This document shows positions 33,300 to 48,079 of a stretch of 64,000 bases of DNA, piece by piece; the stretch's first letter is position 1; the number at the start of each line of letters is the position of its first letter. The notes beneath the pieces are model-generated. The model searched no databases, had not been told where the DNA came from, and saw only the letters and a list, made by a program, of their open reading frames with translations. The position numbers were made by a program, and so were the translations under genes. Source of the stretch: Chloroflexota bacterium (GTDB lineage: Bacteria > Chloroflexota > Limnocylindria > P2-11E > CF-107); contig VBHP01000027.1 in NCBI GenBank assembly GCA_005881435.1, positions 1 through 64,000 of the forward strand. Direction: 5' to 3'.

Positions 33300-34255
33300 T
33301 GACAGCGGCTCTCCCCTGAATCGAGCGTCGAGCCGTCGCTCGCGATGAACGACCAGGCGTAACGGTCCGAATACAGCTCAAGGCGGATGACGCCGTACGT
33401 GCTCGTGCGCACGAACTCGCTGTTGCGCGCCCGCGCCACGATCTGACGCAACTCTCCCCCGCCGGTACCGACGACGAACTGGCGGACGCCCCGAGCGGCG
33501 TCGGGATTGCCCAGACCGTCCTGCGGCGCGAACCGCTCGTACTCGTGGTCGTGGCCCGACAGGACGACTTCGGCGCCGCGGTCGTAGAGCAGCTGCCAGA
33601 TGTCGCTCATCTCGGTCGTCGGTCCGTGTTCACCAGAGCTGAAGCGGGGGTGATGCCAGTACGCAAGGGTGCATCGCGCCGGATGCGCCGCAAGGTCGGC
33701 GCTGAGCCAGGCGTACTGCGGCGAACCCTTCGAGCAGGGCACCTGCTGGCAGTTGCTGTTCAGCACGACGATGTGCCAGCCGCCAGCCGGGTAGCTGTAA
33801 TAGCCGAGACCGGCCGGACCTGCGGCGGCACCGAAATACTGGAAGTACGGCGCGGCGTTCGGCGTGTGGTAGTCGTGATTTCCGGGCGTCGGGCGCGTGC
33901 GATCGAGCTCGTGGCCCCACGTCGGCGCGTAACAATCGCGGTACTGCGCGGCGGTCCCGTCCTCGTAGGCGTTGTCGCCGAGGGCGATGACGATGCCCGG
34001 GATCCGCTCGAGCAGATCGCTCGTCGCCCTTTCGCCGCCGCCACACGTGGCGATATCCCCGGCGCCGACGAGGACCGTCGGCGCGTCGACCGGCGGGACG
34101 TCGATCGGCTCGCCATGCGGCGCCGGTGTCTCGCTCACGCGCGATCCGGCCTGCCCAGCGGTCGCAACGGCCGCCGAGACACCGACCGCGATGAGCGCCG
34201 CCGCGAGTCCCAGCGCCACGAACGCGGCCAGCGGTCGACTCGCGATCCGGCGCAC
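33296..34255 (-). CDS. Secreted/anchored metallophosphoesterase (copy 2)
   Basis: GTG start 34255: VRRIASRPLAAFVALGLAAALIAVGV; GAGDIATCGGGERATSDLL, LGDNAYEDGTAAQYRDCYAPTWG, PTPGNHDYHTPNAAPYFQYFGAAAG, LSGHDHEYERF. Confidence 0.87.
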   Translation of the reverse strand: MRRIASRPLAAFVALGLAAALIAVGVSAAVATAGQAGSRVSETPAPHGEPIDVPPVDAPTVLVGAGDIATCGGGERATSDLLERIPGIVIALGDNAYEDGTAAQYRDCYAPTWGHELDRTRPTPGNHDYHTPNAAPYFQYFGAAAGPAGLGYYSYPAGGWHIVVLNSNCQQVPCSKGSPQYAWLSADLAAHPARCTLAYWHHPRFSSGEHGPTTEMSDIWQLLYDRGAEVVLSGHDHEYERFAPQDGLGNPDAARGVRQFVVGTGGGELRQIVARARNSEFVRTSTYGVIRLELYSDRYAWSFIASDGSTLDSGESRCH

Positions 34256-35028
34256 TAGCGTCGTTCCCCGAGATCGCGGACATCCAGAGCCTGGCCGAGG
34301 AGGAGCGCGAGGAACCGGGCGTTCGCGATCGTGTATCGCCTTCCGAGCCGGCGCGGCTCGCTGACGAGACGGAACAGCCACTCGAACCCGGCACGCTGGA
34401 GCCACCGCGGCGCGCGCGGTCGAACGCCGGCATGGAAGTCGAACGCCGCGCCGACCGCGAGAAGCGCAGCCGCGCGAAGGCGCTCGCGGAACCGCGAGAT
34501 CCACAGATACTGCCGGGGCGTGCCGAGGCCGCACCAGACGTAGTCGGGGCGGGCTGCGTTGATGCGGCTCGCGAGCTCGGTCTCCTCGGCGTCGCTCAAC
34601 GCACGGAACGGCGGTGTCTCGCACCCGACGATGCGTAGATCCGGGTAGCGCTCGCGCATCCGCGATGCGAGCCGTTCGGCCACACCGTCCGCTCCACCGT
34701 AGAAGAAGTGCGTCCGGCCATCGGCGCGCGAACGATCCAGCAGCGCCAGCATCATGTCCGGACCGCAGACGCGTTCGACACGGCGCCCCGCCGCGCGCCC
34801 GACCCAGACCAGGGGCATCCCGTCCGGACAGACGAGGGCCGCGTCACGGAAGGCTTGCGACAGCCGCGGATCGTCACGCGCTTCGACCACGGCATGCGCG
34901 GCGCAGAAGTGCACGTCCAACGGCCGAGCCGTTACCGGCGCGTGCGCGAGCAGCTCGAGGACGTCGGCGAAGCGCAACGGATCGACGTCCATCGCGCCGA
35001 CGCGATATCGCGACGAGCTCGCGGTCAT
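34255..35028 (-). CDS. WecG/TagA/CpsF family glycosyltransferase
   Basis: LVCPDGMPLVWVGR, THFFYGGADGVAERLASRM, PDYVWCGLGTPRQYLWISRF, VGAAFDFHAGVRPRAPRWLQRAGFEWLFRLVSEPRRLGRRY. Confidence 0.9.
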   Translation of the reverse strand: MTASSSRYRVGAMDVDPLRFADVLELLAHAPVTARPLDVHFCAAHAVVEARDDPRLSQAFRDAALVCPDGMPLVWVGRAAGRRVERVCGPDMMLALLDRSRADGRTHFFYGGADGVAERLASRMRERYPDLRIVGCETPPFRALSDAEETELASRINAARPDYVWCGLGTPRQYLWISRFRERLRAAALLAVGAAFDFHAGVRPRAPRWLQRAGFEWLFRLVSEPRRLGRRYTIANARFLALLLGQALDVRDLGERR

Positions 35029-36485
35029 ACCGATCCCCCGCCGCGCGCCGCGATCGCCGCTTGTTGGTGGCGGACCGCGGCCAGCCCGAGGCCGAGGATG
35101 CTCCAGAACCAGATCCCGCCTTGCGGGCCCTCGAGGTAGGGGTCGAACGACGTGTTTACCAGGATCGCGAGCCAGTACGCCAGCAGCCACGCGTCGATTC
35201 GACACCACAGGTGCATCCCCGCGCGACGCGATGCGAAGAAGGCGCGGACCAGCAGCACGCCGAACCAGAGCTGCATCGCCAGCCACATCACGAATCCGGG
35301 CACGCCCATACGCGCCAACACGGTCATATGGCTGTTGTGCGGCGCGCGCACGGAGTCGTCGCTCTTGAACTGATAGCCGTCGTCGTCCGCCAGATTCACG
35401 CCGAATCCTTTGCCGGTCCAGAAGTACTGACCGCCGACGGTGTAATCGAAGATGTCGTGCCACCAGCGAAGGCGAAAATCTCGTGTGCCGTCGAGGTTGG
35501 CCGTGCCCGTGTCGCTCAGCACGCTGCCGACGTTCGCCGCGAGCTGGTCGAGCGAGATCGTGCGCGTCTTGCCGAGGTCGAGCGTCGCGTCGGCGAACAC
35601 CGCGCCGACCAGCACGACCGCGGCAGCGGCGAAGGAGAACCACCAGCGCGTCGGAGGGCGGATCAAGAACGCCGCGATCCAGCCGCACAGCGAGGCGAAG
35701 AGCCCGCCGCGATTCAGCGACCCGGCGACGCCCACGGCGATGACCCACAGCGGCACGAGGAGCGTCGCGCGCAGCGAAGCCGCGGCGAGCGACCCCGGCC
35801 AGAGCGCGACGATCAGGAACGCGATCACGCCCGCGAGGTGCACGCCCATGTCGCCGCCCTTGAAGAACACGACGCCGACATCGCTGCCGGGAATGGTGGG
35901 GAGCGAGGGCGCGAGCGAAAGCACCGCCGACACGCCGACCCAGGCCAGGAAGAACGGCACGAGCCTCGCGTAGAGCTGGCGCAGGCGCTCGAAGTGCTCG
36001 GGGCGAGCGCTCACGGAGGCCGCGAGCGCAAAGCCTCCGTACCCCCACAGGACGCCGTCGCGGAGCGCGTCGATCCCGTAGGTCGAGATATACGGGAGCG
36101 TTCGGGCCGCGCCCCACAGCATGAAGACGATGACCAGCAACTCGAGGCCATGCCAGGTCCGCCGCGCCAGACGGATCGTCGCCAGGACGCCGAGACCAAG
36201 CACGAGCTCCCCGACATAGATCGGCGCGATGCCGAGGTAGGCGAAGGATCTTCCGAAGAACCCATATCCCGCCAGCAGGACCGACAGCGCAGCGAGGAAT
36301 AGGCTCGGCAGCGACGGCGTGATGACGAGCGTCATCGCTACGGCCACGCCGACCACCACAAGGCCGGCCATCGGCACGAAGGCGACGATCGCGCCAGCGC
36401 AGATCGCGACGACGAGAGCGACGATCGGCGTCCGCGTGTCGCCGTGTGGATCGACGAGCGGAAGACGCTGCGGACGAAGGGTCAT
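35025..36485 (-). CDS. O-antigen ligase/Wzy-like polymerase
   Basis: Multi-TM; SVRAPHNSHMTVLARMGVPGFVMW (PHN-type loop motif). Confidence 0.8.
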   Translation of the reverse strand: MTLRPQRLPLVDPHGDTRTPIVALVVAICAGAIVAFVPMAGLVVVGVAVAMTLVITPSLPSLFLAALSVLLAGYGFFGRSFAYLGIAPIYVGELVLGLGVLATIRLARRTWHGLELLVIVFMLWGAARTLPYISTYGIDALRDGVLWGYGGFALAASVSARPEHFERLRQLYARLVPFFLAWVGVSAVLSLAPSLPTIPGSDVGVVFFKGGDMGVHLAGVIAFLIVALWPGSLAAASLRATLLVPLWVIAVGVAGSLNRGGLFASLCGWIAAFLIRPPTRWWFSFAAAAVVLVGAVFADATLDLGKTRTISLDQLAANVGSVLSDTGTANLDGTRDFRLRWWHDIFDYTVGGQYFWTGKGFGVNLADDDGYQFKSDDSVRAPHNSHMTVLARMGVPGFVMWLAMQLWFGVLLVRAFFASRRAGMHLWCRIDAWLLAYWLAILVNTSFDPYLEGPQGGIWFWSILGLGLAAVRHQQAAIAARGGGSV

Positions 36486-37792
36486 GCCACGAGGTCCGCG
36501 TCGAGGTGCCGCAGCAGCTCGCGGTATTTCAGCGTGAGCGGGCTCTCTTCGCCGTGGCCGCCATCGAGCCGCCGCAGATACATATCCAGCAGGTAGATGG
36601 CCTGCAGCGCGCGTACCCGTGTGCGAGACAACCCGTCTCGGGCTCGTTCTACGGCGAGGCGATCGAGCGCTCGGATCGCGCTGCGAATGTCCCAATCTTG
36701 GAGGAGGAAGCCAACCTGAAGTTCGTGATGGATCGCGTCGAGCAGCGGGAGGCCGTCGAGCCAGGCGTTCTCCCAATCGAAAGCGCGCAGGACCCCGCCC
36801 TCCATGCGTAAGTTGAACGGCGCGAAGTCGCCGTGCACGACGGTCGGGACGAACGCCGCGCCACGCAGCGCCTCGATCGCTCGCGTGGCGATCTGGGTCA
36901 GCGAGCCGATACGTTTCTCGGCCATCCGTTCGGGGAGCGATCGAAGCAGAGTCGAGGCGGCGGCATCGCGCGGCTCGCCGCCACCGAGAGCCGCGAGGAA
37001 ACGCATGTGCGCCGGCGACATCCGTGCCGGACCGGGACGGCCAATGAGCGGGGTTTGCACATTCGCGAACACGCCGTCGATCGGGCCGGCGAACAGGACG
37101 CGCGGGATCACGTCGCCTATCTCGGGACGGCGACCGAGCGCAGCGAGCACCTCAGCCTCGTGTGTCACGAGCCGGCGGGACCGCTCGCTGCCCGCCAGCT
37201 TGGCGTACGCGAGTGGCTGTCCATCAGCCGCGAGAGCCACGACGGTCGGGGTGTGTCGCAGGCCCCAGCCGCCGGACGCGAGTCCGATCGCCGCCGGATC
37301 ATGACCGAGGATGCGGGCGAGCTCGGTCTCGAGGGGCGGCGATTCGCGTGACGCGATCCAGAGCTCCGCGCCGCGCAGGAGCGGGCCGGCGGCGCGCAGC
37401 GCGACGGATGCGAGCGCCGCGAGCGCTCGTCCGCGCGGGCGATAGGGCGTGGCGAGCACCCGGAGAGCCGCCCGTGCGAGACCGGGCCGGCCCATGGGCA
37501 CGAACCAGCGGGGACGGGCGGGGGTCGGAAAGACCGCGAAGCGGCGCACGTAGACGAAGCCGGCGCGCGCGAGGTCTCTCTCGGTGAGATCACCCGGCCC
37601 GAATAGGGCGGCGCCCCAAAGCTCGTTCGCACGCGCCAGCGCCGCTTTGGCTTCTCCGGCATGGACGAGAACGCGACGCCGACCGTCCGATGGCGCGCCA
37701 CGGATGAGGTCGCTATCCGCCGGGGCGGCCGCCTCGAATGAGGCATCCGAGCGGAAGAGATAGGTCCACGCCGGCCGAGGCGCGATCAGCAT
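36482..37792 (-). CDS. Aminoglycoside-phosphotransferase-fold kinase in polysaccharide locus
   Basis: VVHGDFAPFNLRMEGGVLRAFDWENAWLDGLPLLDAIHH; start MLIAPRPAWTYLFRS. Confidence 0.75.
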   Translation of the reverse strand: MLIAPRPAWTYLFRSDASFEAAAPADSDLIRGAPSDGRRRVLVHAGEAKAALARANELWGAALFGPGDLTERDLARAGFVYVRRFAVFPTPARPRWFVPMGRPGLARAALRVLATPYRPRGRALAALASVALRAAGPLLRGAELWIASRESPPLETELARILGHDPAAIGLASGGWGLRHTPTVVALAADGQPLAYAKLAGSERSRRLVTHEAEVLAALGRRPEIGDVIPRVLFAGPIDGVFANVQTPLIGRPGPARMSPAHMRFLAALGGGEPRDAAASTLLRSLPERMAEKRIGSLTQIATRAIEALRGAAFVPTVVHGDFAPFNLRMEGGVLRAFDWENAWLDGLPLLDAIHHELQVGFLLQDWDIRSAIRALDRLAVERARDGLSRTRVRALQAIYLLDMYLRRLDGGHGEESPLTLKYRELLRHLDADLVA

Positions 37793-39102
37793 CAGGACAG
37801 AGTCCTTCGCGGCGCGTGCGTCCTGCGGTACACGAACCAGGCATACGCATTGGTGGCGACGGCACCGATCGTCATTCCGATCACCGCGCCCTCGACGCCG
37901 AGCCATCGCACCAGAAGCCAGCCGAAGGGGATCGAGATCGCCGACACGTAGACCTGGATGAGGAAGAGATGCCGCGCGAGACCCTGCACCTGGAGCAAAC
38001 TCGACACGATCGGGACGAGACAGACGAAGAAATACTGCACCGACGTCAACACGACGACGGCCGCGTCGTCGCCGTACTTGTCGTGGTACAGCAGCCGCAG
38101 CACCGGGGTGGCGAGGAGCGCGAGCGGAACGCAGTACATCAGCAGCACCGGGACGACCATGAGGTAGGCGCGCCCGACCTCACGGTGCAGCGCTTCGGGC
38201 CCTGCGTTCGCGCGAGCTCGCGAGAAGCTTACCGGCAGGACGCTGTAGAGAAAGGTCAGCACGATCCGCAGCGGGCCGAACAGCACCTGCGTCGCGCGGA
38301 TCGTCGCCGCGGCGACGGGCCCAAGCAAGAGCGCCGCGACGTAGAGGTAGATCTGGGTCGACGTCCAGTGCGCCGCTTCCGCGGCGGCGAGCCACTTTCC
38401 CATCGCGAAGTTGTCCCGGATCGCGTCCGGATCGAGGATGCGTGAGAGGCTTCGCCGGATCTGGACCATCCCCAGCGCGAGTCCGGCGAGCGACGTGGCG
38501 CCGATGATCACGAGGGCTTCGGGCGCGGTCAACGTGCCGAACGCGACGATGAGGACGAGGACGAGAGCCTGCCCGGCGTAGGTCAGAAGATCGTTGACGA
38601 ACGCATCACCGCCGCGCTCTTCGGTGTAGAGAACGCGCCTGACGAATTCCTGCAGCTGCCAGGCGACACCGGCGAAGACGAGCGCGCCGAGAAGCGGAAC
38701 GGCGCTCGGCGCGAGCGCGGCGGCCGCGATCGTCGCCAGGATGCCGACGACGGCCGATGCCGCAGAGAACGCGAGCTGCAGCAACGCCGTGGCCGCCGTG
38801 TACCCCGCATAGCGCTCCGGGGCGCGCGCCGCTCCGAGCAGGTTGTGCGGGCGTGTTATCGCTCCGGCTTGGAGTGTGTTCACCAGGTAGATCGCGGCCA
38901 GTGCGAGCGCGAATTCGCCGAATTCGTTTTCGCTGAGTGCGGTCGCCGCCAGGAGCGTCGTGACGAAGCTGACCGCGGCTGTCAGCGCTTGGTCCGCGAG
39001 ACCCCAGAACCCGTGCCGGAACTTGAGCGACGGCCGCGTCAGGCCGGCACGCGTGAAGACCGTCAACGCCCGGACGGGTCCGATCAAGGCTCGCGCCCGC
39101 AT
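37792..39102 (-). CDS. Oligosaccharide flippase (Wzx/MOP-like)
   Basis: 436 aa, 12-TM-like, LKFRHGFWGLADQALTAAVSFVTTLLAATALSENEFGEFALALAAIYL. Confidence 0.78.
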   Translation of the reverse strand: MRARALIGPVRALTVFTRAGLTRPSLKFRHGFWGLADQALTAAVSFVTTLLAATALSENEFGEFALALAAIYLVNTLQAGAITRPHNLLGAARAPERYAGYTAATALLQLAFSAASAVVGILATIAAAALAPSAVPLLGALVFAGVAWQLQEFVRRVLYTEERGGDAFVNDLLTYAGQALVLVLIVAFGTLTAPEALVIIGATSLAGLALGMVQIRRSLSRILDPDAIRDNFAMGKWLAAAEAAHWTSTQIYLYVAALLLGPVAAATIRATQVLFGPLRIVLTFLYSVLPVSFSRARANAGPEALHREVGRAYLMVVPVLLMYCVPLALLATPVLRLLYHDKYGDDAAVVVLTSVQYFFVCLVPIVSSLLQVQGLARHLFLIQVYVSAISIPFGWLLVRWLGVEGAVIGMTIGAVATNAYAWFVYRRTHAPRRTLS

Positions 39103-39149: not shown

Positions 39150-40334
39150 ATGCGTGTCCTCATCGCGCACAACGCTTATCGGTATCGCGGCGGCGAGGAG
39201 CAGGCGATCGAGTCGGACCGCGCGCTGCTCGAGGCGAAGGGGCACCACGTCGAGCTTTACGTGCGCAAGTACGACGAGCTCGCGCCCAACGACGGAATTC
39301 TGGGCGGCGCTCGTCTTGCGCTCGCGGCCTTCTGGTCCGCGCGGACATACCTCGAAGTTCGACGTCTCATTCGCGCGGGACGTCCCGACGTACTTCACGT
39401 GCACAACATCTTTCCGCTGATCTCGGCCTCGGTGTACCGCGCGGCACACGCCGAGAGGGTCCCGGTCGTGCAGACGTTGCACAACTACCGTCTCGTGTGT
39501 CCGGCATCGACACTGTTGCGCGACGGCAAGCCGTGCGAGCTGTGCGTCGGCACCGCACCCTGGCGCGCGGTGCGCTATCGCTGCTATCGCGACTCGCGCC
39601 TGCAATCGCTCGCTCTGGCCACGATCCTGACGACGCACCGCGCGCTCGGCACCTGGTCCAGCGACGTCGACGCGTACGTGGCGCTGACAGAGTTCGGCCG
39701 ACGTGTGTTCGTCCGCGGCGGATTGCCACCCGATCGCATCTTCGTTCGGCACAACGCGGTCCACGCGCGAGCGCGGCATCCGTACCACGGAGCCCGGTCC
39801 GCGATCTTCGTCGGGAGACTGTCGCGAGAGAAGGGCGTGAAGGTCTTGCTCGATGCCTGGCGCGCGTTGCCTGAGGTGCCGCTCGAGATCATCGGCGACG
39901 GGCCGCTCGCCGCGGAGGTGCACGCCGCGGCCATGCGTCCGGAGCTCGCTCATGTTCGCGTGCTTGGGCAGCTGCCGCATGGCGAGGTGCTGGAGCATGT
40001 CGCGCGTGCGGGGATGCTCGTCTTCCCGTCGGTGTGTTACGAGGGATTCGCGCTGGCGATCGCCGAGGCACTGGCGCAGGGCATACCCGTGATCGGAAGT
40101 CGCCTCGGCGCGCAGGCCGAGATCGTCCGCGACGGCGTGAGCGGTCTCCTCTTCCGTGCCGGCGATGCGAACGCGCTTCGTGATGCGGTCCGTCGCGTCG
40201 TTGACACGGATGGTCTCGCGGACGATCTCTCGCGTGGTGCGCGAGCCGAATTCGACAGTCGCTTCTCGCCGGACATCAGCTATCGCGCGCTCATCGACAT
40301 CTATCGACGCGTTGCCACCTCCGCTAGCGCGTAG
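39150..40334 (+). CDS. Glycosyltransferase family 4
   Basis: MRVLIAHNAYRYRGGEEQAIESD; DVLHVHNIFPLIS; IFVGRLSREKGVKVLLDAW; CYEGFALAIAEALAQGIPVIGSRLGAQAEIV. Confidence 0.9.
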   Translation: MRVLIAHNAYRYRGGEEQAIESDRALLEAKGHHVELYVRKYDELAPNDGILGGARLALAAFWSARTYLEVRRLIRAGRPDVLHVHNIFPLISASVYRAAHAERVPVVQTLHNYRLVCPASTLLRDGKPCELCVGTAPWRAVRYRCYRDSRLQSLALATILTTHRALGTWSSDVDAYVALTEFGRRVFVRGGLPPDRIFVRHNAVHARARHPYHGARSAIFVGRLSREKGVKVLLDAWRALPEVPLEIIGDGPLAAEVHAAAMRPELAHVRVLGQLPHGEVLEHVARAGMLVFPSVCYEGFALAIAEALAQGIPVIGSRLGAQAEIVRDGVSGLLFRAGDANALRDAVRRVVDTDGLADDLSRGARAEFDSRFSPDISYRALIDIYRRVATSASA

Positions 40335-40497
40335 CGGACCTGGCGCCAACCTGGCAAAAAATCGGTACGTAAGAGGCTGCCCCACGTCTGCTTGCCCAGC
40401 GACCTGTGGCATGTTGCGTGCCGCGCTTTGCCCGCATCGCCACTCATTCGAGTGCCGGAACGACCGATCTCGATACGAACCGCGCGGAGGTTTCGCC

Positions 40498-41184
40498 TTG
40501 ACCGGCCTGACGCAGGAGCTCACGCAATCCGGCCCGGCTATCACTCGCGTGCCCGCCGTCGAGCCGGTGGAGCACCGGATCGTTCGATCGACTACCAAGC
40601 GTGCGATCGATGTTCTTCTAGCCGGGACCGGGCTGGCGGTGCTGTGGCCGGCCTTGCTGCTCATTGCGGTGTCGATCGTCCTCGACTCGGGGTGGCCGCC
40701 ATTCCACCTGCAGGAGCGCGTCGGCCTCAATGGTCGGCGCTTCCGGATGTGGAAGTACCGCACGATGGTGCGCGGCGCGGATGGATTGAAGGCCCAGCTC
40801 GCGCATTTGAATGAGGCGCCGTTTCCCGCATTCAAGGTGCGCGATGATCCGCGCATCACGCGCGTGGGCCGGGCCCTTCGCCGAACGAGCGCGGACGAGC
40901 TGCCACAGCTCTGGAATGTGCTGAAGGGCGACATGAGCCTTGTCGGTCCGCGACCGCCGCTCGCTGCCGAAGTGGAGCACTACGACGAACGCGCACGCCG
41001 TCGTTTGTCGGTCCGTCCCGGGATCACCTGCTTCTGGCAGGTTGAGGACCGTCATGCGAACGGCGCGACGTTCGCCGCTTGGGTCGAGCGTGATCTCGCG
41101 TACATCGATCGCTGGAGCCTCTGGCTCGATCTGGTGCTGCTCTACCGGACCGCGTGCGTCGTCCTGAAACTGACGGGGTGCTAG
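40498..41184 (+). CDS. Undecaprenyl-phosphate sugar-1-phosphate transferase (WbaP/PglC catalytic-domain family)
   Basis: TTG start with GGAGG SD (40486-40490); KYRTMVRGADGL; RRTSADELPQLWNVLKGDMSLVGPRPPLAAEVEHY. Confidence 0.88.
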   Translation: MTGLTQELTQSGPAITRVPAVEPVEHRIVRSTTKRAIDVLLAGTGLAVLWPALLLIAVSIVLDSGWPPFHLQERVGLNGRRFRMWKYRTMVRGADGLKAQLAHLNEAPFPAFKVRDDPRITRVGRALRRTSADELPQLWNVLKGDMSLVGPRPPLAAEVEHYDERARRRLSVRPGITCFWQVEDRHANGATFAAWVERDLAYIDRWSLWLDLVLLYRTACVVLKLTGC

Positions 41185-42458
41185 ATGTGGACGAGGTGAA
41201 CTGGGGCGGCGACGTCGCGATCATCGGTCTCGGACGCGTCGGCCTGCCGCTCGCGCTCTCCTTCGCCGATCACGGGCTGCGCGTGATCGGCGTGGACAAG
41301 GACGGCCGGCGGCTCGCGACCGTCCGCGCCGGCAGGATGCCCTTCAAGGAAACGGGGACGCAGGAGCTTCTCGACCGCGTGAACGCGAAGGGCAATCTCA
41401 CACTCACCGATCGGGTCGCCGATGCCGGCGCGGCGGAGCACATCGTCATCACCATCGGCACGCCCTCGTTCTCGCACATCGAGATCGACATCCGCGATAT
41501 CCGCGCCGCGCTCGATGAGCTCCTCCCGGCGTTGCGTCGAGGAGCATCGCTCATCCTGCGCTCGACGGTCGCCCCGGGCACGACCGAGTTCGTGGCCGGG
41601 TACGTCGCGAAGCGTACCGGTCTCCGCGCCGGGCGCGACTTCTATGTCGCGCACGCCCCGGAGCGAATCGCCGAAGGCCGCTTCCTGACCGAGATCCATT
41701 CGCTCCCTTGCATCGTCGGCGGCGTCGACGACATGTCGACGGAGCGAGTCGTCCAGCTGTTCGAGGTCTTCGGCACGGAGATGCTGCGAACCACGGCGGT
41801 CGCGGCCGAGTTGGCGAAGATCTGGACGAACATACTGCGCTACACCAAGTTCGCACTCCCGAACCTGCTGATGATGAACTGCGAGCAGTACGACGCGAAC
41901 GTGTTCGAGGTCATCGACCTCATCAACCGCGACTACCCGCGCGGCGGGATGGCGCTTCCGGGATTCACCGCGGGCACGTGTCTGCGGAAGGACTTCGCCT
42001 TCTCGGAGGAGCGCTCCAACGCACCGGGCATGCTCCTGGCGGTGTCGCGCGTGAACGAGTCGGTCCCGCTCTTCGTGGTGCAGGGCGTCAGACGTCGCCT
42101 CGGCACGCTCAACGGAAAGAAGGTCGCGGTCCTCGGCCTCACGTTCAAGCGCGATTCCGATGACGATCGTGACTCGCTGTCATACAAGCTCATTCGCTTC
42201 CTGGAACGCGAGCTCGCCGACATCGCTGTCCACGATCCGTTCTTGCCGCAGCAGTCCGAGCCGTATGAGGACGCGGTGGCCAGCGCCGACGTCATCATCG
42301 TCGCCACGAACCACAGTGCCTACAGCGACACAGCCGCGCTGAACACGATCCTGATGGTGGCGCGGCCTGACTGCCTAATCGTCGATGTCTGGAACGCGTT
42401 CGGCACCGGACAGGTCTTCTCCTATGCCGCAGAGGTGGCGGCGGTCACGGCCGCGTGA
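41178..42458 (+). CDS. UDP-glucose/UDP-ManNAc dehydrogenase family
   Basis: VAIIGLGRVGLPLALSFADHGLRVIGVDKD; ELAKIWTNILRYTKFALPN; GFTAGTCLRKDFAF catalytic Cys. Start GTG at 41178 or 41187. Confidence 0.9.
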   Translation: MLDVDEVNWGGDVAIIGLGRVGLPLALSFADHGLRVIGVDKDGRRLATVRAGRMPFKETGTQELLDRVNAKGNLTLTDRVADAGAAEHIVITIGTPSFSHIEIDIRDIRAALDELLPALRRGASLILRSTVAPGTTEFVAGYVAKRTGLRAGRDFYVAHAPERIAEGRFLTEIHSLPCIVGGVDDMSTERVVQLFEVFGTEMLRTTAVAAELAKIWTNILRYTKFALPNLLMMNCEQYDANVFEVIDLINRDYPRGGMALPGFTAGTCLRKDFAFSEERSNAPGMLLAVSRVNESVPLFVVQGVRRRLGTLNGKKVAVLGLTFKRDSDDDRDSLSYKLIRFLERELADIAVHDPFLPQQSEPYEDAVASADVIIVATNHSAYSDTAALNTILMVARPDCLIVDVWNAFGTGQVFSYAAEVAAVTAA

Positions 42459-43429
42459 GCCGAGTTCTCGTCACTGGCGGCGCCGGCAACATCGGCACAG
42501 CCGTCGTGCGACGTCTGTTGCGCGAGGGTGATCTCGAGGTCCGCGTCGCGGATCAGCGCGAGCCCGCGCCATGGGTGCGGGCGCAGTGCGAGATCGTGCA
42601 GACGGACCTTCGCGACCTGTCGAATGCGCGGCGTGCCGCGTCGGGGTGCGACCGCATCGTGCACCTCGCGGCGATCGTCGGCGGCATCGGCAACTTTCAC
42701 AAGCTGCCGTACACCTTGACCGAGGTCAACAGCGGACTCAACAACGCGATCTTCCACGTTGGCATCGAGAACGAGGTCGAGCGCTTCGTGTACGTGTCGT
42801 CGTCGATGGTTTTCGAGCGCGCGGCGCTCTTCCCCACACCCGAGGAGTACCTCGCCGATTGTCCTGTCCCGCAGTCGGCCTATGGCTTCTCCAAACTGGC
42901 GGGTGAGATGTACTGCCGTGCGGCGCACGCCCAGCATGGGCTTCGCTTCACGATCTGCCGTCCATTCAATGCCTATGGCCCTGGCGAGATCCCCGATGCC
43001 GAGCCCGGCATCGCGCACGCGGTACCCGACCTCATTCGCAAGGTGCTGTCGGGATCGAGCCCGCTCGAGATCTTCGGCTCGGGCACGCAGACCCGAACGC
43101 TGACGTACGTCGACGACATCGCCGACGGCATCGTCCGCGCGATGCGGTCTCCGGCCGGACTAAACGAAGACTTCAACATCTCGGCGAAGGAGGAGCTCAG
43201 CGTCGCTGAGATCGCCCGTCTGATCTGGGACGCCTGCGGCGCGGCGCCGGGCGATTTCGCGCTCAAGAGCGTCCCGAGCTTCGCAGTCGACGTGCAGCGC
43301 CGGTGGCCCTCGGTACGCAAAGCGAAAGAGTGGCTTGGGTGGGAAGCACCCACGGCGCTGCGAGACGGACTGGCGCGGACGGTGGACTGGATCCGCGCCC
43401 AGCAACCAGAGCTCGCTCGCGCCTCCTGA
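42455..43429 (+). CDS. NAD-dependent sugar epimerase/dehydratase (SDR)
   Basis: VLVTGGAGNIGTAVVRRLL; YVSSSMVFE; SAYGFSKLAGEMYCR; RPFNAYGPGE. Confidence 0.9.
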   Translation: MSRVLVTGGAGNIGTAVVRRLLREGDLEVRVADQREPAPWVRAQCEIVQTDLRDLSNARRAASGCDRIVHLAAIVGGIGNFHKLPYTLTEVNSGLNNAIFHVGIENEVERFVYVSSSMVFERAALFPTPEEYLADCPVPQSAYGFSKLAGEMYCRAAHAQHGLRFTICRPFNAYGPGEIPDAEPGIAHAVPDLIRKVLSGSSPLEIFGSGTQTRTLTYVDDIADGIVRAMRSPAGLNEDFNISAKEELSVAEIARLIWDACGAAPGDFALKSVPSFAVDVQRRWPSVRKAKEWLGWEAPTALRDGLARTVDWIRAQQPELARAS

Positions 43430-43437
43430 GATCCGCG

Positions 43438-44928
43438 TTGCGTCGTCGCGATTTCCTCACGCGAGGTCTCGGCGCCGGGGTGGTGCTGGCCGTGCTCGGT
43501 CCAGCCTGTTCGAAGCCGGAGGCGGCGCCGCGCAATCCGATCGAGACCGAGAACCTAAATCCGGGATCGGACGGCTGGCGCATCGCCACGCTCGCGCAGA
43601 AGCGGGAGATCGAGGGCTATGCCTCCGCGGTGAGCGTCGCGCCCGGCAGTTCGATCGACCTCATGGTGTCGACCTCCATCCCAAAGACGTTCACGATCCA
43701 GATCTATCGCGTCGGCTGGTACGGCGGCGCGGGCGGACGGCTCATGGTCAGCAAGGACGCGCCGAGCGGCGTCATCGGTCCGCTCGCGGGTGAGCCACGG
43801 CCCGTCCCCGCGCCAACCGCCGCACCGGACTTCCTCATCGAAGCGCGTTGGCCGGTCTCGTACACCCTCGCGATACCCGCGACGTGGCCCAGCGGGTACT
43901 ACCTGGCGAAGCTCACGCGCGAGGATGGCTTCGAACGGTACGCGATCTTCGTCGTCCGCGACCCGCGGTCGAAAGCCGCGATCGTCATGCAAGCGAGCGT
44001 GACCACGTGGCAGGCGTACAACTATTGGGGCGGGAAGAGCCTGTATTCGACCTTCGGCGGCACCGGGACCGACGGATTCGCGACGAAGCTGAGCGATGTG
44101 CGCTCGGGCATGATCTCCTTCGATCGGCCGTACGAGACGACACACGCGCGTGACGGCGCCGGTGAATTCTTCGTCTGGGAAGTGAACATGGTGCGCTGGC
44201 TCGAGCGCAACGGCTACGACGTCACATATGCGACGAACCTCGACGTGCACGCCGATGTCGATCTTTTGCGCGGTCGCAATGCATTCCTCTCTGTCGGCCA
44301 CGACGAGTACTGGACGAATGAGATGCGCCGCAATGTGACCGTCGCCCGGGACAACGGCGTCAACCTCGGTTTCTTCAGCTCGAACGTCTCCTACTGGCGG
44401 ATCCGTCTCGGACCGAACGACGCTGGTGTCCCCGATCGTCGTGTCATCGGCTACAAGGACGTTTCGGTCGACCCCACCACGACGCGCTGGCGCGATCAGA
44501 ACCGTCCGGAGAACCTGCTCGTCGGCGTGATGTACTCGGGGGTCTGGGCTGGGGACTATGTGATCCTGGATCCGTCGAGCTGGGTATTCGACAGCACCGG
44601 GTTCAAGGCCGGCGATCGCGTCAGCAATCTCGTCGGTTACGAGTACGACCGCACGTTCGCGAACGGATTCACGCCGCCCGGCCTATCAGTCCTGTCCCGC
44701 TCGGTCGTCGGCGACGATATCGTCGAGTCCGCGGTGTACAGCGCGCCGAGCGGGGCGGTGGTCTTCGCGACCGGTACGAATCACTGGGCCTGGGCGCTCG
44801 ACGATTACCGGCATCCATGGGTCTCCAGCGAGTTCAAGCCGGTGAAGCCGCACCCGGGGATCGAGCGCGCGACGCAGAACGTCTTCTCGCGCTTCGCGGT
44901 GAGCGGCAGCGCGCTCGCGCGCCGCTAG
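43438..44928 (+). CDS. Tat-exported N,N-dimethylformamidase-large-subunit-like protein
   Basis: LRRRDFLTRGLGAGVVLAVLGPACS (Tat-like, RRRDFL); WYGGAGGRLM, TTWQAYNYWGGKSLYS, FLSVGHDEYWTNEMRRNV, GTNHWAWALDDY. Confidence 0.72.
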   Translation: MRRRDFLTRGLGAGVVLAVLGPACSKPEAAPRNPIETENLNPGSDGWRIATLAQKREIEGYASAVSVAPGSSIDLMVSTSIPKTFTIQIYRVGWYGGAGGRLMVSKDAPSGVIGPLAGEPRPVPAPTAAPDFLIEARWPVSYTLAIPATWPSGYYLAKLTREDGFERYAIFVVRDPRSKAAIVMQASVTTWQAYNYWGGKSLYSTFGGTGTDGFATKLSDVRSGMISFDRPYETTHARDGAGEFFVWEVNMVRWLERNGYDVTYATNLDVHADVDLLRGRNAFLSVGHDEYWTNEMRRNVTVARDNGVNLGFFSSNVSYWRIRLGPNDAGVPDRRVIGYKDVSVDPTTTRWRDQNRPENLLVGVMYSGVWAGDYVILDPSSWVFDSTGFKAGDRVSNLVGYEYDRTFANGFTPPGLSVLSRSVVGDDIVESAVYSAPSGAVVFATGTNHWAWALDDYRHPWVSSEFKPVKPHPGIERATQNVFSRFAVSGSALARR

Positions 44929-47669
44929 AGACGCGCTGCCGCGATCAGTAGCGCGATCGTCGCCCGCATCTTGCCCACACGATCCAGTCCCTGTGGCGCG
45001 AGCGCACCCAGCAGCAGACGCGCGTCATCCGATAGGACCGGCGGCGCGCAATGCTCGCAGGATCCGACCCGGTGGCCGAGCTCGGTCTCGACGGCGCGGA
45101 TGAATCCCGCGACGTAGCGGGCCGGGGCGATGCGCATGCGGCCCGACGCCAGGCTTCGCGCGTTGAGGGGCACGTAGGCATGCTTCGCTAGGTGCAGCAT
45201 CGGCAGATCCGAGGCGCTGTCGCCGATCGCGAACGCGAGCGGTTGGTCCGCATCGACGCCGAGTGCGGCGGCGCAGGCGCGGACACCGCTGGCCTTGTCC
45301 ACTCCCGCCGGGACGAAATCCGTTTGGGACCGTCCGCGGATCGCTGCCGCGGCGCTGGGCAGGCCGAGCGCCATGATGGTGTCGTCGGCAAGGCCGAGTC
45401 GTCGCCCATCCGCGAGCCGATAGGCTCGGATGCCCGCGGCGTACGCCGGATCGAGTCGCACCTCGGGCAGGGTCGCGATCTGGTCGCGCAGGTCCTGCAT
45501 CGCCCGCTGGGCCTCGAAAGACGCTATCGACGTGGCTGCGCCTTGGCCGTCCACGATCACGGCGCCGTATTCGGCGACGCCGCCGGCGAGCGGATATGAG
45601 GCGCAGCGGGTCCGGACCTCCTCGAGGCTCCGTCCGGTGACGATGACGATGCGGTACCCGTGTCGCGCCAGCGCGCGCAGAGCGAACGCGCCCGGAGGGG
45701 GAAGCGCTGCGAAGCCGAGCTCGCCCGTCTCGAGCACGCCGTCCACGTCGATGGCGCAGATCGGTCCACTCGTCGGCGCTTTCGTGTCGGCGAAGATCGT
45801 GCGCGCGAGGTAACGCTCGAGCGCGGCCGACATCTGCCGGCGCGTCTGCTGTAGCGAGTCCGGGCGATCGCGCATCGTCGCGCCCAGGTGCACGAGCGAA
45901 TACAGCAGCCACCGTTCCTCGCCGACGGCGGCGCCATCCTGATGGGCGTACTCGCGCCGCAGCGCGTCGGCGCATTCCGGCAGGCTCGCCGCCGCGCCGG
46001 CCAGGTCGAAGACCGGGTCGTAGCAGTAGAGCTCGCGACTTGCGAACGCGCGATGGTCGACCGTCACCTTGGCGAGATCGCGCCGTCCCGGCGCGGAGAG
46101 GAACCAGCGCGTCGCGTCCATCGTGCCATCGACGATGCACGGACGTTCGACCCGCAGCAGGCGCTTGACCACGCGCGCCGCGGCGGGAAGCGCCAGCGGC
46201 GCGGCCACGCCGTGCGCTCGCGCGAGCTGTTCGGCCCCACGTCGCCACGCGGTGCCTCTGCCGAAGAGCCGCTCGGCCTTGTCCTCCGCGACCGCCAGCA
46301 CGCGCCCGCGTGCCGCCACATACTGTGCGACGCCGCGCGCGAGCTCATCGGTTGTGAGCCGATTCGCGGCAAGGCGCTCCGGCGGCAGCCACTCCCGGAA
46401 CAGCACACCGTCGGCGATCCCATATGACTCGGGAACGCGGTCGCGAAGACGACGCGCGACCGCTAGGGCGTGTTCGCCGAAGTAGCCGAGTCCGGCGCCC
46501 TTCGCGTACACGAGCCGCTCGCCGTCGCCGTCCCGGCCGCGGACCGCGACGCGGTACAGCGCTCGCGCGTGGCGCCGCTGCTGTTTCGACGCCGGGGCGT
46601 CGTCGCGACGAACTGCGATGACGGCGACGCCGCGGTCGCCCCAGAGCCGCGCCAGAGTCGCGCGGACGGCCTCACTCTCGAACCGATCGTGGATCGACCA
46701 GCGGGGCCAGGGCAAGGTCACGGCCGAGAGCCGCGCGAGCGCCAGCGCCTCCGGCAGCCGGTCTTCGAAGAGTGGCACGCAGACGACGACCGAGCGCTCC
46801 GCGACGCCGATGCGGCGCAACTCCGCTGCGATCTCGCGCAGCGAGCCCCCGGTGTTCGGCGGGTCATCGAACACGGCCACAAGTCCGCGCTCGTGAGCGA
46901 TCTGACGCAGCGTCGCTTCGGCCCGGCCGGGCACGAGCTGGCCCGGACGGAGCGTCACGGTCCGGACGTCGCTGAAACCCTCGCGCGCCAGAAATGCCGC
47001 AGCCAGCGGAGCCAGGTAGTTACCCGAAGTGCGCACGCCGAGCGCCGCGATGGGTCGCCGTCGGTCTGGGAACTGAGACGCGAAATCATGCACCAGCGTG
47101 GCGATGTCTTCAGGGCGGACGTCGAAGCTGCGGAAGCATGACGGAATGCGCACGATCGCGCGGCGAAGCGACTTCGGAGCGTGCCGTGCCGCCGCGGCGA
47201 GCGCGAGCGCGTCTCTTTGAAGATCGTCGCCGGCCGCCCCGGCATCGACGACCACTTCCGCGAGCCGGACAGCCAGCGCTGCGCTTTCGAGCTCGAAGTC
47301 GCTGACATCGAACGCGCCAGGCCGTCGGCGAGTGATCGCGATGGCGCGACCGGCCATGGTCGTCGCGATCCCCGCGGCGGTGCCGGCGATCCGAAGGCGG
47401 CGCATCCGTTTTCGGACGAGCGAGAGCGAGTACGGATCATGTTCGTGATCCTCGACGATCTGCTGTATGCCGGCGGCGACGAGGAACGCGTCGAGCCACG
47501 AGCCAGTGGCGACGAGCGCGGGCAGGGCCCCCGCCAGTGTCTCAAAGTCATTGAGCAGATCGAGGGCGAGCTCGTCCCCGCGAAGCGTCAACGCGCCGTT
47601 GCGATCGCTCCGCGCGTTCCCTATTGGCGCGAGCGCGAGAGGATCGGCGAATGCCTCGCCGATCCCCAC
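44925..47669 (-). CDS. 914-aa fusion: PRTase-like domain + APH/kinase-like domain + HAD (Cof-like) phosphatase
   Basis: PIAALGVRTSGNYLAPLAAAFL...GLVAVFDDPPNTGGSLREIAAEL (PRPP-loop-like); LVYAKGAGLGYFGEHALAVARRL...CIVDGTMDATRWFL...DPVFDLAGAAA; ICAIDVDGVLETGELGF...RIVIVTGRSLEEV...AIGDSASDLPMLHLAKHAYVP. Confidence 0.75.
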   Translation of the reverse strand: MGIGEAFADPLALAPIGNARSDRNGALTLRGDELALDLLNDFETLAGALPALVATGSWLDAFLVAAGIQQIVEDHEHDPYSLSLVRKRMRRLRIAGTAAGIATTMAGRAIAITRRRPGAFDVSDFELESAALAVRLAEVVVDAGAAGDDLQRDALALAAAARHAPKSLRRAIVRIPSCFRSFDVRPEDIATLVHDFASQFPDRRRPIAALGVRTSGNYLAPLAAAFLAREGFSDVRTVTLRPGQLVPGRAEATLRQIAHERGLVAVFDDPPNTGGSLREIAAELRRIGVAERSVVVCVPLFEDRLPEALALARLSAVTLPWPRWSIHDRFESEAVRATLARLWGDRGVAVIAVRRDDAPASKQQRRHARALYRVAVRGRDGDGERLVYAKGAGLGYFGEHALAVARRLRDRVPESYGIADGVLFREWLPPERLAANRLTTDELARGVAQYVAARGRVLAVAEDKAERLFGRGTAWRRGAEQLARAHGVAAPLALPAAARVVKRLLRVERPCIVDGTMDATRWFLSAPGRRDLAKVTVDHRAFASRELYCYDPVFDLAGAAASLPECADALRREYAHQDGAAVGEERWLLYSLVHLGATMRDRPDSLQQTRRQMSAALERYLARTIFADTKAPTSGPICAIDVDGVLETGELGFAALPPPGAFALRALARHGYRIVIVTGRSLEEVRTRCASYPLAGGVAEYGAVIVDGQGAATSIASFEAQRAMQDLRDQIATLPEVRLDPAYAAGIRAYRLADGRRLGLADDTIMALGLPSAAAAIRGRSQTDFVPAGVDKASGVRACAAALGVDADQPLAFAIGDSASDLPMLHLAKHAYVPLNARSLASGRMRIAPARYVAGFIRAVETELGHRVGSCEHCAPPVLSDDARLLLGALAPQGLDRVGKMRATIALLIAAARL

Positions 47670-47693: not shown

Positions 47694-47972
47694 CTAGCGC
47701 TTGGAGACAAGGGCCCGCAACGCGAGGGCCGCCATCCCGAACGTCACGATGACCGCGCCGAACACGAAGTACATCGCCGAGAAGTCAGTCGAAGTATTCG
47801 GGAGATTGCCGACCCCGCCGGCCTGCGTCGTTCCGGGCTGCTGCAGGGCGGCACCGGCGATGGATCCGGCCGCCGTAGCGGCGGCTTCCATGGACCCGCT
47901 CGCGAGCGCGCTCGCCGCGAGCAGGAGCGTGAGAACCGCGGTCGCGAGGAGCGTGAGCAGCGCAATCTTCAT
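47694..47972 (-). CDS. Small secreted protein with LPxT-like sorting signal
   Basis: MKIALLTLLATAVLTLLLAASALASGS...NLPNTSTDFSAMYFVFGAVIVTFGMAALALRALVSKR; SD AAGGAGA. Confidence 0.7.
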   Translation of the reverse strand: MKIALLTLLATAVLTLLLAASALASGSMEAAATAAGSIAGAALQQPGTTQAGGVGNLPNTSTDFSAMYFVFGAVIVTFGMAALALRALVSKR

Positions 47973-48079
47973 CGAGCTCTCCTTATCCGAGGCATCCATT
48001 GGCGGTATACGCAGAGCACGAGCCGGTGCCCACCGTTTTGCGGGAAATTCGGTATCGAAGCAGAGCGGTTGGTGGCTTG

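Follow-up and report, generated by a model that had tools for sequence, protein, structure and literature searches.

A phosphoribosyltransferase, kinase-like, and phosphatase fusion protein beside exopolysaccharide genes: a candidate soluble ribofuranosyltransferase

What might a single polypeptide that joins a phosphoribosyltransferase (PRTase), a kinase-like domain, and a HAD phosphatase do beside exopolysaccharide (EPS) genes? The question is raised by a gene in the first 64,000 nucleotides of contig VBHP01000027.1 from a Chloroflexota bacterium (GenBank assembly GCA_005881435.1), a stretch referred to below as the window. A preliminary description of this DNA had recognized the three parts and suggested a dedicated nucleotide or sugar-phosphate pathway. 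The analysis reported here found three folds, conserved catalytic residues for both phosphoribosyl pyrophosphate (PRPP) and HAD chemistry, a conserved fusion family, and an EPS context. On balance, we incline to the view that the fusion protein is a soluble two-step ribofuranosyltransferase for a surface polysaccharide, the order of steps, donor, and acceptor being those that we infer. The link with EPS genes suggested previously is retained, and the proposed pathway is better read as PRPP-dependent glycan ribosylation.

Fusion family, domains, and conserved residues

The fusion gene is a single unbroken frame of 914 codons on the minus strand (positions 44925 to 47669), with a GTG start and no frame breaks. 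The plus strand across the same interval contains many stops, and a gene caller based on codon usage and trained on the family returned the identical gene. The uninterrupted reading frame had been described correctly except for omission of its strand, and every peptide quoted with it was found in the translation. Searches of Pfam, NCBIfam, and the PDB with the single window protein detected the HAD part alone, and Pfam did not detect the PRTase domain in this protein.

When 85,462 species genomes were scanned with a pattern, 49 loci were found, most of which hold the same fusion as one single gene of 880 to 980 amino acids (aa), and a phylum search found full-length relatives with 32 to 41% identity. 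The family alignment comprised 45 proteins, i.e., the window protein and 44 homologues (29 to 41% identity), mainly from Actinomycetota, Chloroflexota, and Dormibacterota. Because these 44 homologues align and most are intact single-gene fusions, the architecture is not an accidental joining of motifs. An AlphaFold model built from the 45 sequences had a mean pLDDT of 90.9 and a pTM of 0.91. Profile and Foldseek results give the domain order as helical (residues 30 to 165), PRTase (166 to 345), kinase-like (346 to 632), HAD (636 to 865), and a CxxC tail. The helical domain is retained by most full-length homologues, and C871 and C874 of the C-terminal motif, which perhaps binds metal, are present in 37 of the 38 alignment rows that extend to it.

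The PRTase fold proposed for the N-terminal part was borne out by profile searches, structural modeling, and conserved loops. All 35 PDB matches (E≤1) to a profile of residues 160 to 350 were PRTases: PyrR, orotate, hypoxanthine, adenine, and uracil PRTases and one uncharacterized PRTase-fold entry. A separate model of the same residues retrieved HPRT, XPRT, PyrR, and APRT in Foldseek, the top seven matches all being HPRT or XPRT (E, 1.6e-4 to 4.9e-4), and PF00156 (Pribosyltran) matched 31 of the 45 aligned family members (best E=1.4e-7). G211, R213, T214, S215, G216, Y218, and R241 are invariant in the 45 sequences; in the PRPP loop, D268, P270, P271, and T/S273 are found in all 45, D269 in 43, and G274 in 42. 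The features of type I PRTases, an alpha/beta fold and a vicinal acidic pair followed by T/S-G, are both present, with DDPPx(T/S)G in nearly all 45. Judged by the model and these loops, residues 166 to 345 are a type I PRTase, for which PRPP-dependent transfer is predicted. Fold, pyrophosphate loop, and PRPP loop are shared with PyrR, OPRT, HPRT, and APRT, from which the domain differs in its low identity (∼11 to 23% by structure alignment), its DDPP loop, its fusion to other domains, and its location in EPS loci.

Assignment of the C-terminal part to Cof-like HAD phosphatases also stands. The window protein matched Hydrolase_3 (E=1.1e-9) and Cof (E=2.1e-10), Hydrolase_3 matched 37 of the 45 family members, and C2-cap HADs of the Cof and trehalose-6-phosphate types (PH1421, T6PP, and MPGP) ranked first in Foldseek of the whole model. 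D641 and D643 (DxDG) are conserved in 41 of 41 readable rows, T/S678 and G679-R680 in 42 of 42, and E700-Y701-G702 in 41 of 41. DxD motif I, the Lys of motif III, GDxxxD motif IV, and a C2 cap place the domain in HAD-IIB (Cof); no insert the size of a cap separates motif I (641) from motif II (678) in the model, where a beta-rich cap lies at ∼696 to 778. Core, cap, and motifs are those of Cof-type HAD-IIB sugar phosphatases (SPP, MPGP, T6PP, and phosphoglycolate phosphatase), but all scores fall below the curated NCBIfam cutoffs and the domain is fused.

The central region had been likened to an APH-fold kinase, and the fold, but not kinase catalysis, withstood analysis. Foldseek of the whole model matched this region to choline kinase alpha, LxmK, and ethanolamine kinase (E, 1e-4 to 3e-4), with low TM-scores (0.15 to 0.21 of the whole query and 0.34 to 0.47 of the target); it had no sequence match, Pfam APH being found in 0 of 45 members. 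D514 is conserved in 45 of 45 sequences, K534 in 44 of 45, D551 in 44 of 44, and D555 in 43 of 44. The overall fold is that of APH, choline kinase, and LxmK, but the catalytic HGDxxxxN loop is replaced in the 45 sequences by D514-G-x-(T/M), without Asn, and the beta-3 lysine is not conserved, position 390 after strand beta-3 being E, Q, K, or R. A weak, low-probability profile comparison aligned the D514 loop with the HGDFAPFN loop of an APH-like gene in the window and is no more than suggestive. We read the domain as a kinase scaffold with altered function, and not as a proven pseudokinase. As both HGDxxxxN and the conserved lysine are gone, the phosphoryl transfer claimed previously is unsupported. 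An active, divergent kinase would make the chain a sugar-activation enzyme that phosphorylates, transfers, and then dephosphorylates ribose or another sugar, and the kinase fold, the invariant D514, and the nearly invariant K534, D551, and D555 are consistent with this. The replaced loop and the variable position 390 argue against it, and at 25 of 45 loci a gene within 8 genes matches the profile of a bona fide APH kinase, either standing alone or fused to another protein, so that the EPS cluster is already supplied with a kinase. We consider an active kinase highly doubtful.

Exopolysaccharide genes around the fusion

Genes within 8 genes of the fusion were scored at the 45 loci that had at least five neighbors. 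As a control, 40 stretches, each of 20 kb, were scored in the same way; they came from seven genomes, of which five were actinobacterial genomes also represented among the loci and two were others; own-locus matches were excluded from BLAST-scored categories. At least one core EPS category was present at 35 of 45 loci, versus 1 of 40 control stretches, and at least two were present at 26 of 45 loci, versus 0 of 40. Kinship among loci inflates the value of 35 somewhat; the family tree has deep branches (median end branch, 0.59) and spans several phyla. The association with EPS genes, noted previously for the window, thus holds in many genomes. Besides APH kinases, the families counted were flippases (Polysacc_synt/MVN-like; 23 loci), glycosyltransferases (22), polysaccharide deacetylases (20), a ∼600-aa polytopic family (18), GH16 (15), and FemAB/GNAT (10). 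Because the fusion recurs beside EPS genes in scattered soil bacteria, addition of ribose to a surface sugar polymer is probable.

The same neighbors bear on a second route, in which polyprenyl phosphate would receive ribose-5-phosphate; the HAD domain would dephosphorylate the product, the neighboring flippase would move it across the membrane, and an external membrane glycosyltransferase would use it, as in three-component pentofuranose systems. Flippases and the polytopic enzyme are frequent enough to keep a lipid-linked donor under consideration, and a parts list of PRTase-HAD, MOP flippase, and membrane enzyme agrees with that of such systems (PMC11127046). However, the polyprenyl phosphoribose synthases described so far belong to the UbiA type of membrane protein (PMC11127046), whereas the fusion has a soluble type I PRTase fold; a flippase with a polytopic enzyme would equally suit ordinary Wzx/Wzy assembly, and neither the flippase nor the polytopic-family profile matches in the window. 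A lipid-linked donor is therefore unlikely, and direct transfer to a glycan remains our preferred reading.

In the window, the fusion gene lies tail-to-tail with an EPS cluster (Table 1), the end gene of which, encoding a dimethylformamidase-family protein, converges on it with a 4-bp overlap. The membrane protein of this cluster was considered as a representative of the common flippase and rejected, since the profile from other loci does not match it and no kinship is detectable. Upstream on the strand of the fusion are genes for a small LPNTS-anchored protein, an HTH (RodZ-like) protein, and an FtsK-like protein, the last two named from sequence alone. The first of these is a candidate sortase-type anchor on the basis of its sequence. 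It has no Pfam match, and no similar protein occurs among the frequent neighbor clusters.

Table 1. Features of the fusion gene and its surroundings in the window
Feature	Position	Strand	Evidence or remark
PRTase/kinase-like/HAD fusion gene, 914 aa	44925-47669	-	GTG start; AF2 model pLDDT 90.9, pTM 0.91
N-terminal helical domain, residues ∼30-165	47175-47582	-	No known family; DSSP of model, helices only
Type I PRTase domain, residues ∼166-345	46635-47174	-	Profile versus PDB, Foldseek, PF00156
Pyrophosphate-loop motif GVRTSGxY, residues 211-218	47016-47039	-	Conservation in 45 sequences
PRPP-binding motif VAVFDDPPNTGGS, residues 264-276, vicinal DD at 268-269	46842-46880	-	Conservation
Kinase-like (APH/choline-kinase fold) domain, residues ∼346-632, substituted catalytic loop	45774-46634	-	Foldseek; conservation
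HAD-IIB/Cof-type phosphatase domain, C2 cap, residues ∼636-865	45075-45764	-	Hydrolase_3, Cof, SPP, and MPGP families; Foldseek
HAD motif I DxDGVLE, residues 641-647	45729-45749	-	Conservation
C-terminal GHRxGxCxxC motif, residues 866-874	45048-45074	-	Conservation
WecG/TagA/CpsF glycosyltransferase, EPS cluster	34255-34992	-	PF03808, E=1.5e-58
O-antigen ligase/polymerase, EPS cluster	35025-36485	-	PF04932, E=1.9e-16
APH-like kinase with intact HGDFAPFN, EPS cluster	36482-37792	-	Motif scan; no Pfam match
Membrane protein, possibly flippase, EPS cluster	37792-39102	-	Position and hydrophobic sequence; no Pfam match
GT4 glycosyltransferase, EPS cluster	39150-40334	+	PF00534/PF13439
Sugar-1-phosphate (undecaprenyl) transferase, EPS cluster	40411-41184	+	PF02397, E=3.2e-62
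UDP-glucose/GDP-mannose dehydrogenase, EPS cluster	41178-42458	+	PF03721, E=1.8e-37
NAD-dependent epimerase/dehydratase, EPS cluster	42455-43429	+	PF01370, E=3e-52
N,N-Dimethylformamidase beta-subunit C-terminal family protein, 482 aa	43480-44928	+	E=7e-108
101-aa protein: signal-like N-terminus, LPNTS, hydrophobic helix, basic tail	47694-47999	-	24 bp upstream of fusion gene

Several further features of these loci were noted. At ten loci (L029, L034, L040 to L042, L045, L048, L059, L060, and L066), neighbor cluster CL2 consists of a flippase-like protein with a C-terminal APH kinase domain (740 to 930 aa); elsewhere, the CL2 flippase is ∼440 aa and the APH gene is frequently separate nearby. 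For EPS loci, a fusion of flippase and kinase seems unusual. Cluster CL4 (L051:13887-15677, L069:13902-15698, and 15 other loci) comprises conserved polytopic proteins of ∼600 aa in which the C-terminal part is soluble and WPGF and WxxQ-Y-PQ are invariant. They are candidates for an unnamed family of membrane glycosyltransferases or polymerases; the label Wzy was dropped, there being no Pfam or PDB match. In one 1,153-aa chain (L044:3-3464), the CL4 membrane part is joined to APH kinase and GT2-like glycosyltransferase parts. A stand-alone homologue of the HAD domain (L025:9516-10592, the same as L007; E=1.6e-45) lies in an EPS locus, and no PRTase or kinase-like part was found within the ∼20-kb stretch examined. 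Two family members (L066, 8330 to 10950; L074, 9731 to 12441) are split into two overlapping frames, probably through frameshift errors in draft assemblies rather than a programmed event.

Proposed mechanism, known enzymes, and a plasmid variant

We propose the following. (i) Through its GVRTSGxY pyrophosphate loop and its PRPP loop (DDPPxT/SG), the PRTase domain would bind Mg-PRPP; it would then transfer ribose-5-phosphate to a hydroxyl of a growing or undecaprenyl-linked glycan, releasing pyrophosphate. (ii) Within the same chain, the HAD domain would strip the 5'-phosphate to leave a ribofuranosyl residue, which could then be extended, flipped, and polymerized. One soluble protein is accordingly predicted to consume PRPP and then to liberate phosphate. 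The middle domain, an APH-like scaffold with a rebuilt catalytic loop, would probably hold the acceptor or couple the two active sites rather than phosphorylate.

Transfer from PRPP followed by 5'-dephosphorylation by a HAD enzyme has been proved for Bcs3 (PMC10299916), Cj1432 (PMC12096443), and the Klebsiella O4/O7 enzymes (PMC11231755), as summarized in PMC11127046. Like these gPRT-PRP enzymes (Haemophilus influenzae Bcs3 CriT-CrpP, Campylobacter jejuni Cj1432, Klebsiella O4/O7, and Thermobacillus composti), which are large multidomain proteins of surface polysaccharide loci, the fusion has a PRPP-type transferase and a HAD domain in one chain and is associated with EPS loci. However, the acidic residues of CriT (D680 and E818) lie in separate loops rather than forming a vicinal DD (PMC10299916), whereas the fusion has vicinal D268-D269. 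Similarly, CrpP has an alpha-helical C1 cap inserted directly after HAD motif I, between motifs I and II (PMC10299916), in contrast to the C2 cap after motif II in the fusion, which also has an extra kinase-like domain and the order PRTase-kinase-HAD. No Bcs3 or T. composti chain was among the PDB profile matches listed, the presence of those entries in the PDB copy being unconfirmed. Because the fusion has neither hallmark and no such chain was matched, it probably works like gPRT-PRP enzymes without belonging to their family. Its canonical PRTase, its HAD of another class, and its additional domain suggest a third kind of enzyme that arose by convergence.

Two further systems are comparable in chemistry. 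Butirosin O-ribosylation by BtrL and BtrP also comprises PRPP ribosylation of an aminosugar and then dephosphorylation, with separate proteins in an antibiotic pathway. The polyprenyl phosphoribose synthase and PRP systems (Citrobacter ORF15 and mycobacterial Rv3806c/Rv3807c) share a PRPP donor, 5'-dephosphorylation, and a nearby flippase, but their transferases are UbiA-fold membrane proteins (PMC11127046).

A related arrangement is found on plasmids of Streptomyces sp. MMBL 11-1 and Kitasatospora, where PRTase and kinase-like parts form one protein of 646 to 658 aa (L018 profile, E=4.7e-26 and 9.9e-14); when the Streptomyces plasmid protein was added to the alignment, divergence was too great for a pattern scan. 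Two weak middle-domain profile matches in other genomes (L121 and L128) were rejected as chance, lying in a Gfo/Idh-type oxidoreductase and in a shadow frame. A separate HAD gene, of class HAD_2/Hydrolase and not Hydrolase_3, overlaps the end of the plasmid gene. Since this HAD is separate and of another class, the PRTase and kinase-like domains are the constant core, to which a phosphatase has been recruited repeatedly. Recurrent pairing with a phosphatase is as predicted by phosphoribosyl transfer followed by dephosphorylation, although the plasmid acceptor need not be a polysaccharide. The five-gene cassette (L018:11999-17375 and L019:4998-10339) encodes an AdoHcyase-like NAD protein, a 155-aa protein, an S-adenosylmethionine (SAM) methyltransferase, the PRTase plus kinase-like protein, and the HAD protein; in L018, a B12/radical SAM gene follows. 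This looks like a small biosynthetic pathway, and its composition, with no EPS genes, suggests that the fusion might instead serve a pathway, like that of this cassette or a Ter-linked PRTase/HAD module, whose product is a small metabolite of nucleoside-like or sugar-phosphate type that may decorate or regulate EPS. Chromosomal fusions, however, adjoin glycosyltransferases, flippases, and deacetylases. PRTase_2 of Ter modules was found in 2 of 45 members (E, ∼0.07), and TRSP was not among the Pfam matches listed; the preliminary description was right to hold its parallel with ter operons loosely, as an analogy. We judge a metabolite pathway to be slightly less likely even than a lipid-linked donor.

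Four points weigh against glycan ribosylation, which we nevertheless favor. The PRPP loop has PP where hydrophobic residues are usual in PRTases, 10 of 45 loci have no scored EPS family within 8 genes, and the plasmid version adjoins a methyltransferase and an AdoHcyase-like NAD protein without EPS genes. Further, the substrates are entirely inferred, as are the acceptor and the role of the middle domain.

Occurrence and significance

The fusion gene was present in a single copy in each of eight genomes checked and absent from the 40 closest relatives. It occurs in ∼2% of the genomes sampled from the window's phylum and in <1% of the Actinomycetota genome sample. This rare, patchy, single-copy occurrence fits an accessory or variable surface-glycan trait. 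A scan of IMG/VR gave no match to the fusion, PADLOC assigned no defense family, and no prior description of the architecture was found in Pfam, NCBIfam, PADLOC, or the part of the literature that was searched.

The incorporation of ribofuranose into bacterial polysaccharides has been explained lately, for Gram-negative systems. We tentatively suggest, at somewhat less than even chances, that the fusion represents a third class of glycan ribofuranosyltransferase using PRPP, one that evolved independently and in which a PRTase of nucleotide-salvage type makes O-glycosidic bonds, a kinase-derived domain provides the acceptor site, and a Cof-type HAD finishes the reaction. In any case, the fusion documents a kinase-fold domain without the kinase signature within a putative glycan enzyme. 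If the suggestion is true, the fusion would found a new glycosyltransferase family for polysaccharides of Gram-positive bacteria and Chloroflexota and would provide a marker for ribose-containing exopolysaccharides in relatives of Streptomyces. It would also mean that a classical nucleotide-salvage fold is able to build sugar polymers, convergently, in soil actinobacteria and Chloroflexota.

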